Shown: piece by piece, positions 10,812 to 33,721 of the stretch
How the letters are laid out: each line of letters opens with the position of its first letter
How positions within the stretch are numbered: position 1 is the first letter of the stretch
Notes under the pieces: generated by a model
Seen by the model: the letters and a program-made list of their open reading frames with translations, nothing else
Database searches by the model: none
Told to the model about the DNA's origin: nothing
Position numbers and translations under genes: made by a program
Origin: Candidatus Nitrosopelagicus sp.
Lineage (GTDB): Archaea > Thermoproteota > Nitrososphaeria > Nitrososphaerales > Nitrosopumilaceae
Assembly (NCBI GenBank): GCA_028345295.1
Contig: JAOMDA010000012.1
Span: 1-33,721, forward strand
Reading direction: 5' to 3'
DNA: 33,721 nt

Positions 10812-11354
10812 ATGAGAACGTTTGTTGCAGTTGAAATCACTGATGTAAAAATACTAGAGAAAATTCAAAAATTTCAACAAGAATTCCAAATTAATGCAAA
10901 ACCGATAAAAATTAACCAAATTCATTTTACCTTACAATTTTTGGGTGAGATTTCTGAAGAGAAATGTGAAGAGGTCAAACAACAGTTGAAAAAAATTACA
11001 TTTTCACAATTTAATTTATCATTAAAAGGAGTGGGTGTATTTCCAAATTTAAAAAATCCTAGAGTTATCTGGATTGGAACTGATGAAAGGGGAGCTGAAA
11101 AGCTAATCGCAATAACTAAAGAAATAGGAATGAAATTAACATCATTAGGTTTTCAAAAAGATGAAAAATTCAAGCCTCATTTGACAGTTTTCAGAATAAA
11201 ACACAAAATTGAAGATATTTCATTAAGAGTAAATGAGTATAAGACAGTTGAATTTGGAACACAAGTTATAACAAAAATTAAATTAAAAAGAAGCATTTTA
11301 TGTCCAAAAGGACCAGAGTATTCAGATTTATTGGAGGTTAATGGAAATGAATAA
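10812..11354 (+). CDS. thpR: RNA 2',3'-cyclic phosphodiesterase (LigT/ThpR family)
   Basis: The 180-residue 2H phosphoesterase has both H-x-T motifs: IHFTLQFLG (H38, T40) and KPHLTVFRI (H123, T125). It opens 2',3'-cyclic phosphate RNA ends. ATG at 10812 gives the typical MRTFVAVEI start; an in-frame TTG at 10803 is less likely. The natural C-terminus appears altered: the last 36 bases before the stop are repeated at 13932-13967, where the thpR frame continues NENEKRNFKKS to a stop at 13989-13991. The present stop TAA is supplied by the inserted DNA. Confidence 0.9.
   Translation: MRTFVAVEITDVKILEKIQKFQQEFQINAKPIKINQIHFTLQFLGEISEEKCEEVKQQLKKITFSQFNLSLKGVGVFPNLKNPRVIWIGTDERGAEKLIAITKEIGMKLTSLGFQKDEKFKPHLTVFRIKHKIEDISLRVNEYKTVEFGTQVITKIKLKRSILCPKGPEYSDLLEVNGNE
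11316..11351. repeat. Direct repeat copy 1A, proximal border of carbamoyltransferase cassette
   Basis: These 36 bases at the 3' end of thpR run from GAGTATTCAGATTTA through TGGAGGTTAATG to AAATGAA. They match 13932-13967 at 34 of 36 positions (T/C at offset 16, G/A at offset 29). The insert-derived stop codon of thpR begins at the next base. Confidence 0.9.
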
Positions 11355-11387
11355 TTCAAGCCTCACTTACTATAACATTTACTTTTA

Positions 11388-13026
11388 TCAAATTACATGA
11401 CCTAACCAATCTTTAGTAATCAAAATATTTCCTATACATAAATAATCTATCTCGGAAGAAAAGAAAGTCCTTAAACCGTCCTGTAGACTATTAACCATTG
11501 GCTCTCTTGGTAGATTTAGACTAGTATTTATTAAAACTGGAACTCCATTAACTTTTTCGAATTCATTTAAAAGATTCCAATAAAGTTGATTTGATTTTTT
11601 AGAAACTGTTTGCTGCCTTGCAGTTCCATCAACATGAACAACTGCTGGAATTTTTTCTTTTTGTTCATTTTTAACTTTAGAACTTAATAGCATAAAAGGA
11701 GATTTTAATTTTTTGCTAGAAAAATAATTCGATGTTTTTTCTTCAATAACAGATGGTGCTAAGGGACGCCAATACTCTCTTCCTTTAACTCTGTTTAATT
11801 TTTTCCACATTTCCGGAGTTGTTGGATTTGCTAGGAGGCTTCTAGAGCCAAGTGCTCGTGGTCCAAATTCAGCTCTACCTTGAATCCAAGCAACTATTTT
11901 ATTTTCGGATAATATTTTGGCAATTTCATTAGGGACATCTGATAATTGTTTGTAAGCTATGGCTGAGTTTTTTAAATATTCTTCAACTTCAGAATGAATA
12001 ATCTCTGGACCTAGATATGTATCTTCCATGGTAGAGATCTTTTTGCTAGAATATTGATGATGTACATACAAAGCTGCACCAAGAGCTGTTCCTGCATCAC
12101 TTGATGCTGGCTGAATAAATATATCATCAATTCCGTCACTGTTGAGTATTTTACTATTCATATCAATATTAAGAGCAGAACCACCAGCAATACAAATTTT
12201 TGAAATATTAGAAACTTCTTTTAGTTGTTCTACTAATGATAATGCACATTTTTCCAAAAGATGTTGTGCAGTAGCAGCTATGTCTTTTCTCTCATCTTTT
12301 GTTGGATCATCTCCTGTAAAGGAATTTTGTCCAAGATTCATCAGTCTTCTCCCATCAATGATAATTTTCCCGCTTTTGTCAATCTTGGCTAAATCACTTA
12401 GGGCCTTTATTGGATTTCCATATGGTGCTAATCCCATGGTTTTCCCTTCTTCAAAGTGAGATCTGAACCCAATCGCTGCAGTAAATTTGGAATATAATTC
12501 ACCTAATGATTCATAACGACTAATACGCCTTAAAATTTGGAAATCACCATTCTCATAAATTCCCATAATACCTGACTCAAAATCGCCTCTACCATCTAAT
12601 GTTAAAAACAAGGATTTTTCGAAGCCGCTCACTAAGCAAGAACTTGCAGCATGAGCAATGTGATGTCGAACTTTAATTATCCTTGAATTTTTAAATCTTT
12701 TTTTAATAAAATTTAAAAATATTTTTTTCAACTCCTATGCATTCTAACCAGAATGATGCTTCATCTTTTTGTTGTTCGGTGAGATTACATTCTATTTCTT
12801 TTTTTGAACTATATCCATCCCACCCTATGGCAATTATATCAACGTCATCATAACTAATTCCAGAATTTTTTAAACACCAATCTATAGCATTAAATGGAAA
12901 CATACGTGGTGCCTGTTTTATACGAGTGAATCTCTCTTCTTCTACAGATGAAAGAATTTCTCCATCTCTAACCAATGCTGCCGCATTTGTGCTTGCTATA
13001 GGATGAGAAATTCCTAGGATTATCAT
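11388..13026 (-). pseudogene. Carbamoyltransferase (NodU/CmcH/TobZ family), split by a single-base frameshift
   Basis: Two overlapping frames make one enzyme. Residues from 13026 down to about 12728 give MIILGISHPIASTNAAALVRD and VEEERFTRIKQ. The second frame, down to 11388, gives VRHHIAHAASS, then GPRALGSRSLLANP, YWRPLAPSV and VPVLINTSLN. Together they make about 545 residues, near full family length. The shift lies at an A7 tract (T7 at 12722-12728 on the plus strand); with six A the frames join as GVEKIFLNFIKK. Family members transfer carbamoyl from carbamoyl phosphate to sugars or antibiotics. It may be a true pseudogene, an assembly error in a homopolymer, or expressed by slippage. All motifs after the shift are intact, so decay, if real, is recent. 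Confidence 0.75.
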
Positions 13027-13059
13027 AGTTTCACCGAAACCTCATAATAAAACTCCATA

Positions 13060-13908
13060 TCAATTCAACTGTAGGGTTATCCAGTAATTTTCTGTATTTT
13101 CACCATTTGTATCTATTACTTCAAAATTATTATTTTGAGCTAAAACAAAAATTTCTTCACTGGAAAAACGGACACTTTGCCATTTATCATCTAATAACTT
13201 ATCATCTTTTTTTCCTCGAACTTGAAATTTGAACAAACAGTTTTTTTTCAATACTCTTGAAACCTCTTGAATAAAAGTAGAAACAATCTTTTTGCTAGGA
13301 ATCCATCTAAATGATTCTACTATATAACAAAAATCAAAGAGATCATTTGAAAAAATAGATAGATCTATTCCATTGTTTTCATAAATTTGGCAGTTAAAAC
13401 TATTTTTATTTAATTCGTTAGATGTTCTTACTCTGTCTATCGAAATATCAACTCCAATAACTTGCCCAAAAATTTTTGACATTTTTTCAAGAACTTGACC
13501 TGTTCCACATCCAATCTCTAAAATCTTCATATCGAGAAAATTTTTTCTTTGAAAGATATTACCAAGCTTTGATTCGAGTTCATTAATTATCAACGAATAA
13601 TATATTTCTCCTGACTCCAAATTTTTTTCCTGAAAAAATTCAGATTCGGTCAATCTTTCATTCCATTGAGATTTTGTCCAATCTATAGATGATAACCAAT
13701 TTCTATTCAAAGGAGGGAAAGATGCTCTTAATTCATCTGATTTTTTAAGAATATCAATCAAGTCATCATGACTAATGATTTTTTCTTTTAGTTGGCTAGT
13801 TAAACTTGTAAGGCTATTTGAATCCACATCTCTGCCTAGTACATCCAGATAAGATTTTTTCACAAAGTTTTCATCATCCATATACACGTGTGAGAATTGA
13901 ATATTCAT
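13060..13908 (-). CDS. SAM-dependent methyltransferase with N-terminal DUF4214-like domain
   Basis: The 282-residue protein has two parts. Residues about 12-62 (NFVKKSYLDVLGRDVDSNSL ... LKKSDELRASF) match the DUF4214 pattern, with vLgRd.D..gl and a final SdEfr. These domains are often attached to glycosyltransferases and other surface-glycan enzymes. Residues about 125-280 are a class I methyltransferase: motif I ILEIGCGTGQ (129-138), acidic GVDIS, and a later FCYIVESFRWIP in place of motif IV. It starts 34 bases upstream of the carbamoyltransferase gene on the same strand, so they likely act on the same glycan or small molecule (inference). The acceptor is unknown. Confidence 0.75.
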   Translation of the reverse strand: MNIQFSHVYMDDENFVKKSYLDVLGRDVDSNSLTSLTSQLKEKIISHDDLIDILKKSDELRASFPPLNRNWLSSIDWTKSQWNERLTESEFFQEKNLESGEIYYSLIINELESKLGNIFQRKNFLDMKILEIGCGTGQVLEKMSKIFGQVIGVDISIDRVRTSNELNKNSFNCQIYENNGIDLSIFSNDLFDFCYIVESFRWIPSKKIVSTFIQEVSRVLKKNCLFKFQVRGKKDDKLLDDKWQSVRFSSEEIFVLAQNNNFEVIDTNGENTENYWITLQLN

Positions 13909-13931
13909 ATAGATTTGCCTATATTTGACAT

Positions 13932-13967
13932 GAGTATTCAGATTTACTGGAGGTTAATGAAAATGAA
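13932..13967. repeat. Direct repeat copy 1B, distal border, containing the cca RBS and start codon
   Basis: This copy matches 11316-11351 at 34 of 36 positions. It carries the GGAGGT ribosome-binding site (13949-13954) and the ATG of cca (13963), ending two bases after that codon. The thpR reading frame stays open across it until 13991, showing that this is the ancestral operon junction. Confidence 0.9.
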
Positions 13968-30732: not shown

Positions 30733-31227
30733 TTATTCCGTAATTTGCTGCCTAGATTTAATGAAATCTACAAATGAATTCCAATTTACTTTTAGAAATC
30801 TTGTTGGGTCTTTTAATGGATATTGTACCCAATCTTGTACTACCGCATATTGATATTCCTTCTTTTTCCCCTCTTCAATTATCTCCATTTTTAAAACATT
30901 ACCCCAAACCTTTTTCTCAATTTTTAGATTTAAAATGTTGTTAAAAGTTACTTCACTACTCTTTTTTTTATTTTCCAGATCAATTTTCAAATCATCTTCA
31001 TTATAACCATCATGAACGATCATAACATCCCCATTTTGAATTAATCTTACAACCTGCCGTGTAACAGTGGCTTTCCACCACTTTTTCATCCGCTCAGTTT
31101 TTCTAACAAACATTAGATGCTTATCTGTTAGAAATAACATTCCTTCTTTACCACCTATACTCATAAACGAACCACCTTCTCTCCAAACAGAGACAATATG
31201 CGCTCTAATTTTTTCATCAGATTCCAT
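30733..31227 (-). CDS. PH/GRAM-like domain protein (tentative)
   Basis: The 164-residue protein has a beta-rich pattern from MSIGGKEGMLFLTDKHLMFV, through EVTFNNILNLKIEKKVWGNV, to a final helix (WNSFVDFIKSR). This fits a PH-like/GRAM domain, with the first strands ending FLTDKHLMFVRK. ATG at 31227 is chosen because the longer frame from 31275 starts within direct repeat copy 2A. It leads the operon with cbiE. Confidence 0.5.
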   Translation of the reverse strand: MESDEKIRAHIVSVWREGGSFMSIGGKEGMLFLTDKHLMFVRKTERMKKWWKATVTRQVVRLIQNGDVMIVHDGYNEDDLKIDLENKKKSSEVTFNNILNLKIEKKVWGNVLKMEIIEEGKKKEYQYAVVQDWVQYPLKDPTRFLKVNWNSFVDFIKSRQQITE

Positions 31228-31265: not shown

Positions 31266-31314
31266 CTCGACCCATTTTTATTGAGGCTATTTTTTCTGCA
31301 TCTATGAGTAAATT
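31266..31314. repeat. Direct repeat copy 2A, proximal border of methyltransferase cassette
   Basis: These 49 bases begin CTCGACCCATTTTTATTG and end ATGAGTAAATT. They match 32403-32451 at 47 of 49 positions; the two mismatches are in the triplet before ATG (tct/gtt). Here the cyclophilin start codon is followed by only four codons and a stop, a cut-off gene start. Confidence 0.92.
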
Positions 31315-32402
31315 TTTCTAATATAAAGATCCATTCTAGTTTTTTGACCAAACAATGACTGAATATCCATCAATAAACATACTGCCGATGTAACTTCTTT
31401 GTGCTTTTAGAATTTTCAATTCACCCTTAGACTCTAAATTTCTCAAATGTTCTAGATAACCGTTCAAATAATTTCTTTTTTTGATATATTCTATTGATAA
31501 ATTATCTATTTTATTTTTTTCATCTAGGTGTTCAATTATGGGTTCAATGTGTATACATAATCCAACATTTTGTTTTAAAAGATAATCTATAAACTTCTTA
31601 AAATCGTTACCAACTTGCTCTAATGATACAACAGTAAATACAACTGAATCATCTTTTAACTTAAAATCATAATCTGGATTAAAATAATCAAAATTTTTTG
31701 AATTAAATCTATATTTTGAATTTTTTTGAGAAAGTTTTTTTATAATTTCTTGTGAAGATTTTGTCCAATCCAATCCCCACATTTCTGCATCTTGATTAAT
31801 TTCACGTGCATGTAGCAAATTATGTCCTGTCCCACATCCAAATTCATAAATCGTTTCTACATTTCTTATGTATTTATCAAAAAGCCAATCTTGTATAACA
31901 TATAGGGAATTTAACTCAAAATTTTTTTTTAATGGTTTTACAAATTTCTGTTTCCATCTTAAGATGTCATGTTTTGCAAAATATTTTGGAATAATTTCTT
32001 GTGGAGAAAATTTTGCCCAACTAGGTCTAAAGGTTTTAGGAAATCCATTTTTATCTAAAAGAATTGCTTCATCTAAGTTTTTGAGATTTTCTTCCCATCC
32101 TTTTTCCCATTGGTCTCTTCTATGTTTACCTGCTTTAACAAAATCTTCTTTTCCAAGATGTTGTTCTATTTTTTGAATAATTTCTTCTTCTTCTTCTTTT
32201 GAAAATTCATAGTATGCAAAATCATATTCATCAATTTTTTGTTTTAAATATTCTGAAATTTTTTCACCTAAAACTTCTTCAAAGTCTGTTACTGTAATTT
32301 TTTTAATTTCAGACATAAAATTGAATTTCCTGAATAAAAGGAGTTTAAGATGGCCATTTAATGTTTAGTCTAGAATTATTCCATTTTATAGTAAATTATA
32401 TA
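31315..32402. mobile_element. 1.09-kb inserted cassette between direct repeats (methyltransferase)
   Basis: The segment between the 49-bp repeats holds one minus-strand methyltransferase gene and short flanks. The outer repeat copy is a useless fragment of the cyclophilin 5' end, so the segment probably split that promoter region from the gene at 30733. The form is the same as at 11352-13931. No mobility gene or terminal inverted repeat is seen. Confidence 0.6.
31336..32316 (-). CDS. SAM-dependent methyltransferase, class I
   Basis: The 326-residue protein has an N-terminal helical part rich in Lys and Glu (about 1-110), then a methyltransferase core: motif I IYEFGCGTGHNLLHA (156-170), acidic MWGLDWTKS, and VVFTVVSLEQVG at about motif IV. 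It has no DUF4214 part and is not a close copy of the enzyme at 13060. Similar proteins are common in glycan or small-molecule loci; the acceptor is unknown. It is the only gene in the second cassette. Confidence 0.75.
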   Translation of the reverse strand: MSEIKKITVTDFEEVLGEKISEYLKQKIDEYDFAYYEFSKEEEEEIIQKIEQHLGKEDFVKAGKHRRDQWEKGWEENLKNLDEAILLDKNGFPKTFRPSWAKFSPQEIIPKYFAKHDILRWKQKFVKPLKKNFELNSLYVIQDWLFDKYIRNVETIYEFGCGTGHNLLHAREINQDAEMWGLDWTKSSQEIIKKLSQKNSKYRFNSKNFDYFNPDYDFKLKDDSVVFTVVSLEQVGNDFKKFIDYLLKQNVGLCIHIEPIIEHLDEKNKIDNLSIEYIKKRNYLNGYLEHLRNLESKGELKILKAQRSYIGSMFIDGYSVIVWSKN

Positions 32403-32451
32403 CTCGACCCATTTTTATTGAGGCTATTTTTTCTGCAGTTATGAGTAAATT
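32403..32451. repeat. Direct repeat copy 2B, cyclophilin leader and start codon
   Basis: This copy lies directly before and across the ATG (32441) of the cyclophilin gene and matches 31266-31314 at 47 of 49 positions. The TATA-like AATTATATA (about 32393-32402) lies just outside it, in the inserted segment, so the insertion may have changed the promoter of the cyclophilin gene. Confidence 0.92.
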
Positions 32452-33721
32452 ACCTGTAATTATCTCAGGAATTATTCTATTATCGATTATACCTTATGCA
32501 TTTGCTGAGTATGAAGACACATTAGTTCTACTCAAAACAAATTCAGGAGATTTAGTAATTGAATTTTTTCCAAGTGACGCACCAAATCATGTTGAGAGTT
32601 TTCTTAAACTGTCATCAAATGTAGACACTGATCCAAAAATCATGGATAAGTTAGCTGAAGTTCAAGTGCCACAAAATATCTACAAGGAGACGGTATTTCA
32701 CAGAATAATTCCTGAATTTATGATCCAGGGTGGAGATTTTAATACAAGAGCGAATTTTGACGATGATAGAAATTGGGGGCAGGGAAATATTGGCTATTTT
32801 ATTGACTGTGAATTTAATGACATTAAACATAAAAGAGGAATTGTATCTATGGCCAGAGCCCCAGATCCTAATAGTGCAGGAACACAGTTTTTCATAGTCC
32901 ATAAAGATTCTACTTTTCTTGATGGGCAATACACTGTTTTTGGTAGATTAGCAACCCAAGAAAGTTTTCAAACACTTGACAAAATTGCATCATTAGAGAC
33001 AGGTCAACGTGACATTCCAGTAGATCGTGAGGCAGCTAAAATAATTGAAACCCAAGTTTTGGATCGCTCTGCTTTTGATAACTTGTTAGAATTAGATCCA
33101 CCAAAAAGAGGCAATATATCTACTGGATTATGTTATGATAAAGGTAATTCTGGAGAATATGCAGATGAAGAATTAGGTTTTTCATTTAATATACCAATAG
33201 GTTGGTCGGTTTCTAATCCAGAAATTCAGAACATAAACACACCACAAGTTGCTGTACTTGGACCTGTAGGATCAGATGGCATTCCTGCTGCTTTTGCAGT
33301 GAATGTTAAGAATTCTACCGCATCACTAGATGAAGTTATCTTGGCTTTTGAGAATACAATACTAACTGCAATGGATGTTAACGTAATTGAAATTATTTCT
33401 AAAGAAAACATAAAACTTGGTAACTTTGATGGGCAAAGAATTGCATTTTACCAAATTTTTGATAAAGCTGAATCAGGAGAGAATGTATCTGATGGGATGG
33501 TTCAACTTAGAATTGAAATATATTTTATCAAAACCTCAGATGATAGAATCTTCACTTTACAATTTACTAATGTTTCAGAAAACTATAACGACACAACAGG
33601 CCAATTCAAAGATATTTTAGATTCATTTAAGATTAAAAACGCCATTTTACAAGCATCAGCAACTAACGAATCAGAATTACAGCCTATCGAGGAACAATCA
33701 GAATCATCTGAAGGCGGCGGC
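32441..33721 (+). CDS. Secreted cyclophilin-type peptidyl-prolyl isomerase with C-terminal PsbP-like domain (partial)
   Basis: The frame is open to the window end, giving 427 residues without a stop. Residues 1-22 are a signal peptide (LLSIIPYAFA then E). Residues about 25-195 are a cyclophilin: FHRIIPEFMIQGGDF, SMARAPDPNSAGTQFFIVH and FLDGQYTVFGRL. After LCYDKGNSG a second domain begins (ELGFSFNIPIGWSV ... FDGQRIAFYQIF ... ILDSFKI), resembling PsbP/DUF1795-type domains. The end turns Ser/Glu/Gly-rich (EEQSESSEGGG), perhaps a linker to a membrane anchor beyond the window. It acts outside the cell on protein folding. Confidence 0.88.
   Translation, partial: MSKLPVIISGIILLSIIPYAFAEYEDTLVLLKTNSGDLVIEFFPSDAPNHVESFLKLSSNVDTDPKIMDKLAEVQVPQNIYKETVFHRIIPEFMIQGGDFNTRANFDDDRNWGQGNIGYFIDCEFNDIKHKRGIVSMARAPDPNSAGTQFFIVHKDSTFLDGQYTVFGRLATQESFQTLDKIASLETGQRDIPVDREAAKIIETQVLDRSAFDNLLELDPPKRGNISTGLCYDKGNSGEYADEELGFSFNIPIGWSVSNPEIQNINTPQVAVLGPVGSDGIPAAFAVNVKNSTASLDEVILAFENTILTAMDVNVIEIISKENIKLGNFDGQRIAFYQIFDKAESGENVSDGMVQLRIEIYFIKTSDDRIFTLQFTNVSENYNDTTGQFKDILDSFKIKNAILQASATNESELQPIEEQSESSEGGG

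Follow-up and report, generated by a model that had tools for sequence, protein, structure and literature searches.

A methyltransferase gene is enclosed by two copies of a gene junction

The window analysed here is an entire contig of 33,721 bp from a Candidatus Nitrosopelagicus assembly of 1.07 Mb that is 92% complete. Near its right end, a class I SAM-dependent methyltransferase gene stands between a conserved gene and a cyclophilin gene, with a 49-bp direct repeat on either side. The region contains the following features (positions are those of the window).

30733-31227, minus strand: left-flank gene of unknown function, conserved in relatives
31266-31314: left repeat copy, 49 bp; the native junction from the viewpoint of the minus-strand gene, with an orphan start and the predicted core promoter of cyclophilin
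31275-31282, plus strand: second occurrence of the TTTTTATT box, preceding the orphan start in the left copy
31315-32402: putative inserted DNA, 1088 bp; GC 25.6% versus a genome sample mean of 32.2%; missing in relatives
31336-32316, minus strand: class I SAM-dependent methyltransferase (cargo), assigned from weak Pfam matches and homologues
32403-32451: right repeat copy, 49 bp; spans the functional cyclophilin gene from -38 to +11
32412-32419, plus strand: cyclophilin TATA-like box TTTTTATT, within the right repeat copy at -29 to -22
32441-33721, plus strand: right-flank cyclophilin (peptidyl-prolyl isomerase); PF00160, 3.8e-40; PF18933, 3.5e-11

The cyclophilin has an N-terminal signal-like segment and a PsbP-like C-terminal domain, and its gene runs past the contig end. 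The two repeat copies are identical at 47 of 49 positions, the mismatches being two adjacent bases (TC versus GT). An earlier sequence-only reading of this DNA had described such a repeat enclosing about 1.09 kb with a methyltransferase gene alone, and our analysis bears this out: the enclosed segment measures 1088 bp and has one gene-sized ORF with family support. The same reading placed the cyclophilin start codon, four further codons and a stop in the outer copy, and from 31304 the left copy indeed reads ATG AGT AAA TTT TTC TAA (MSKFF*), an orphan cyclophilin start. Its description of this copy as a stranded fragment of the gene holds for the orphan start but is too narrow, as the span from -38 to +11 takes in the greater part of the divergent intergenic region, with the TATA-like box.

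The repeat is far from what chance would produce. Order-1 Markov shuffles of 270 kb of the source genome contained no repeats of at least 30 bp at 85% identity, and the repeat score here is 43, versus a best of at most 13 among 150 random pairs of 300-bp windows. When up to 3 mismatches were allowed, the 30-mer core of the repeat had two sites only in the whole 1.07-Mb assembly, both at this junction. The repeat is therefore not dispersed, and the possibility of a conserved dispersed element, named beforehand as evidence against an insertion, falls away.

The enclosed DNA differs in composition from the rest of the genome: its GC content ranks among the six lowest in 1192 unmasked windows of 1088 bp from the genome sample. 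No transposase gene was found in it, no inverted repeat pairs of at least 25 bp were found at its ends, and no Rfam families were found in the region. The word AGTAAATTA at 32390-32398, within the last 20 nt of the segment, is found again in cyclophilin, from +4 to +12. A match of this type arises in about 1.4% of shuffles, and the recurrence is perhaps a trace of slipped copying.

Relatives carry a single junction and no methyltransferase

We compared the junction with that of related genomes. The left-flank gene and cyclophilin lie directly back to back, without the methyltransferase, in about 20 of them, and the distance from start to start is 73-88 bp, or up to 147 bp in a few with an uncertain start. 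G010, the most closely related genome that is informative here, shares a median protein identity of 88% with the source genome over 259 orthologues; it has one junction copy, no methyltransferase and 76 bp between the starts. In the source genome, 77 bp separate the ATG of the left-flank gene (31227) from the orphan ATG (31304), so the left side retains the ancestral spacing. For the left-flank gene, a start at 31227 is more likely than one at 31275, because homologue alignments begin near M17 (most within about 13 codons of it, many right after a stop codon) and a TATTAA lies at -29 from 31227, just beyond the left repeat copy.

The sequence-only reading had proposed that relatives with a single copy and no methyltransferase would support an insertion, and that both copies plus the gene in all relatives would speak against one. 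The relatives' junctions show the former, and these comparisons support the interpretation that the methyltransferase segment is an insertion. At the same junction, another relative (G024) has an open frame of about 1 kb, NHL-repeat-like, between the left-flank gene and the cyclophilin domain; this frame is apparently an N-terminal domain fused to cyclophilin.

The divergence of the copies gives the insertion a relative date. They disagree with each other at 2 of 49 positions, but 16 of 49 separate them from G010 (the right copy is identical to it at 33/49), which indicates that the duplication is later than the split from G010. This bears on the reverse polarity, in which both copies and the methyltransferase are ancestral and the relatives lost the segment by repeat-mediated deletion. 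Such a reading has a precedent in Haloquadratum, whose repeat-bounded indels were mostly read as deletions (PMC3119063). It would require the same loss in all relatives and in other genera, and the cargo is absent from the family genomes searched, its relatives being bacterial. With the copies so much nearer to each other than to G010, we regard ancestral presence as scarcely credible.

A chimeric contig in a metagenome-assembled genome could also place foreign DNA at this position, and this contig ends 1.27 kb past the right copy. However, expected orthologues lie on both sides of the cassette, and a second case on the contig (below) has a different sequence. Short-read assembly also tends to collapse repeats rather than to make diverged copies, and these copies differ. 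An assembly artefact is thus most improbable.

The cyclophilin promoter appears duplicated rather than replaced

The earlier reading placed the TATA box now serving cyclophilin in inserted DNA and suggested that the insertion had rewired the promoter. To assess candidate boxes by position, we used the source genome itself: upstream of 561 ORFs, TATA-like words form a peak between about -30 and -24 relative to the start codon, which is consistent with leaderless archaeal mRNAs. The insert does contain two such words 5' of cyclophilin, TTTTATAG at about -57 and TTATATAC at about -45, one or other of which was probably the box that the earlier reading had in mind; both are off this peak. In contrast, TTTTTATT lies at the canonical position in the duplicated native segment, with its box at -29 unchanged. 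The arrangement C/T-TTTTATT, exactly 21 nt and a start codon occupies the orthologous place in 17 of the 20 relatives checked.

A promoter PWM trained on the source genome did not separate the native box from TTTTATAG and TTATATAC, which leaves the insert words as candidates by that rough scan, and our promoter assignment consequently rests on position and conservation. By these two measures, a cyclophilin box derived from the insert is very unlikely, and neither the location proposed for the TATA box nor the rewiring built on it found support. Instead, as the box lies inside the repeat, both copies carry it, and the cyclophilin core promoter would have been duplicated, not replaced. Each neighbour seems to retain its own promoter, including the TATTAA of the left-flank gene. 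In the left copy we predict an orphan promoter aimed, in antisense, at the 3' end of the methyltransferase gene.

The cargo resembles bacterial genes of polysaccharide loci

Pfam matches of the methyltransferase (Methyltransf_31, Methyltransf_12 and Methyltransf_25) are weak and below curated cut-offs. Motif I (E-x-G-x-G-x-G) is present as EFGCGTGHN and is kept in the homologue. A structure predicted from two sequences had a mean pLDDT of 49 and was too poor a model for use. Among 200 genomes of the family, the source genome is the one that carries the gene; it was not found in the other 199.

The relatives that we found are solely bacterial or viral-contig genes, in sugar or polysaccharide loci. 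The best homologue, from a Bacteriovoracaceae genome, is 53% identical in the alignment (50% in the best tblastn segment) and follows a pair of transketolase genes and two genes of NDP-sugar epimerase type, as named from their ORFs. A 39% homologue on an IMG/VR viral contig lies among apparent glycan genes with transketolase-like halves and an epimerase. A domain of about 28% identity is part of an Azospirillum plasmid ORF annotated as a glycosyltransferase, whose neighbours are transketolase, epimerase and O-methyltransferase genes. No relatives were found in phages, nor in viral contigs with a single-sequence query. Because three distant homologue loci keep the same gene company, the cargo methyltransferase probably acts on a surface-glycan sugar.

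A second gene junction on the same contig is duplicated around an insert

A similar arrangement occurs between thpR and cca on the same contig.

11316-11351: left repeat copy, at the thpR 3' end; 34/36 identical, or 39/44 if extended to 11311-11354
11352-13931: second insert, with a NodU-type carbamoyltransferase and a DUF4214-methyltransferase, both on the minus strand
13932-13967: right repeat copy, at the cca 5' end

In the 27 relatives whose retrieved stretch included both genes, thpR overlaps cca or almost touches it; in the source genome, 2.6 kb lie between them. The contact of these genes in relatives, together with the repeats, points to a second, independent insertion that duplicated a gene junction. 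The DUF4214-methyltransferase was found in none of 60 relatives, and homologues of the carbamoyltransferase at about 40% identity occur in 9 of the relatives searched. The carbamoyltransferase gene (11388-13026) is split over two overlapping frames of 447 and 107 amino acids, where relatives have open frames of about 573 amino acids, owing to a frameshift or a sequence error. The right copies of both cases (ending at 13967 and 32451) stop at +11 from the downstream gene's start codon, possibly by coincidence.

Repeats of this kind are rare. In about 672 kb of the source genome (with small overlaps), these two were the only junction-type repeats, and no convincing ones were found in 1.43 Mb sampled from four relatives (400 kb of G026, 363 kb of G020, 298 kb of G010 and 374 kb of G027). 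The other repeats in the surveyed DNA were tandem gene, domain or non-coding duplications. Synteny among four genomes revealed 17 gaps or insertions, including thpR/cca, and the other long repeats there were tandem gene duplications only. Since other indels lack such repeats, genes are not usually gained by junction duplication in these genomes.

No recombinase was detected in the source genome

Target-derived direct repeats lie at both ends of the segment, as in integrated elements. We searched the source genome for the corresponding enzymes. Neither a tyrosine recombinase nor a serine recombinase nor Cas1 turned up in the 92% complete assembly, while the same searches were positive in 14/14, 10/14 and 9/14 control genomes, respectively. 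The Cas1 homologue that characterises casposons is accordingly missing from the genes found. PF00589 (Phage_integrase) genes, even of the Xer type, were found neither in the source genome nor in complete G026, a genus-mate assembled as one contig of 1,232,128 bp, nor in 95%-complete G020. RadA/RadB-type genes are present in the source genome. Since no recombinase or Cas1 was found and RadA is present, recombinase-free repair or recombination by the host is favoured. A recombinase gene might be missed, as the assembly is 92% complete, and a recombinase of the invading element acting in trans would leave no gene behind, which counts against the recombinase-free reading.

These considerations bear on site-specific integration, in which the 49-bp repeats would be attL and attR of a small CIME-like element that lacks its integrase or was served by one in trans. 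The length of the repeat falls within the crenarchaeal att range of 29-69 bp (median 45; PMC6563490), gene ends are restored as at many att sites, and integrases exceed the cut-off in 5 of 31 genomes of the genus. However, thaumarchaeal att sites and target duplications are mostly below 26 bp, with a median of 17 bp (Krupovic et al. 2019, PMC6563490), and the target here is a divergent promoter, neither a tRNA gene nor a 3' gene end. The two cases on the contig share no common site sequence, and neither repeat core was found in the viral contigs searched. With no tyrosine or serine recombinase found in the source genome either, we consider an att origin distinctly unlikely.

The repeats may derive from re-copying of the target

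We consider it probable, with some reservation, that the locus arose by one junction-duplicating capture in this lineage, which was recombinase-free and kept the core promoters and start codons of both neighbours. A foreign methyltransferase gene would have entered the divergent intergenic region of about 77 bp between the left-flank gene and cyclophilin, and the insertion would have left two copies of a 49-bp stretch of the target, from -38 to +11 of cyclophilin. The left copy would then be a stranded promoter with a five-codon start fragment, and the right copy the working cyclophilin promoter. The incoming DNA was most likely a fragment captured during repair of a staggered break or a stalled fork, with fill-in or re-copying of 49 nt. 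Selection probably retained the insertion, because the duplicated junction leaves both neighbours intact, while non-duplicating insertions at so tight a junction would have been lost.

The close alternative is a Campbell-type single crossover by RadA, with a circle that shared the junction sequence and already held the methyltransferase and the 49-bp junction, for example from another strain. This event would yield exactly the anatomy observed, RadA is present, and a direct analogue has been proposed for transposed genes of Arabidopsis that are flanked by repeats of target origin, whose origin was attributed to inserted circles (Woodhouse et al. 2010, PMC2869330). But the donor must already hold the archaeal junction, which merely pushes the first insertion back by one step, and no such donor DNA was found in relatives or viral contigs. 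We regard the crossover as rather unlikely, though a possibility to be reckoned with. Between the two routes we favour capture of a fragment, because an incoming gene of bacterial type would need no archaeal homology.

Comparison with known systems and significance

The Arabidopsis genes are like this case in that single non-transposon genes occupy new sites and the repeats, mostly genic, match the empty target of a relative. They differ in belonging to a eukaryote, and many of them have a parent site in the same genome, whereas here the cargo is of bacterial type and no parental copy was found. Haloquadratum walsbyi offers an archaeal parallel, with strain-specific DNA between direct repeats and a single copy in the other strain. 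Its repeats are nearly all below 20 bp and were read as deletions (PMC3119063), in contrast to the 49-bp repeat and the polarity of insertion here. Integrated elements of Thaumarchaeota, too, are foreign DNA between direct repeats in ammonia-oxidising archaea; they occupy intergenic regions or the ends of genes, which are restored. Those elements are recognised by signature genes of mobile elements or by features of site-specific integration, whereas this segment has no mobility gene and a longer repeat. In Nitrosopelagicus brevis, no integrated elements were found (Krupovic et al. 2019, PMC6563490). The microcin H47 genomic island of E. coli is also small, with short direct repeats at its ends, and excises without a site-specific recombinase of its own (PMC5426353); its excision was shown by experiment, whereas excision here would be a prediction.

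The interest of the insertion lies chiefly in the second case and in the lack of a detectable recombinase. Compact archaeal genomes with overlapping genes offer few harmless places for insertion, and the complete genus-mate G026 (1.23 Mb) seems to be without mobile elements. This case shows how a very compact genome acquires a gene with its neighbours unbroken, and two junction-duplicating insertions of surface-modification-type genes on one contig suggest an integrase-free way round the constraint. This reading predicts an orphan promoter and the product of a precise excision. Tentatively, and with more doubt than confidence, we suggest that junction-duplicating capture is a distinct recombinase-free route for single surface-modification genes into streamlined marine ammonia-oxidising archaea. 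By re-copying 35-50 bp across two gene ends, such a route would let overlapping or back-to-back genes survive the insertion, and the repeats would allow precise loss of the cassette.
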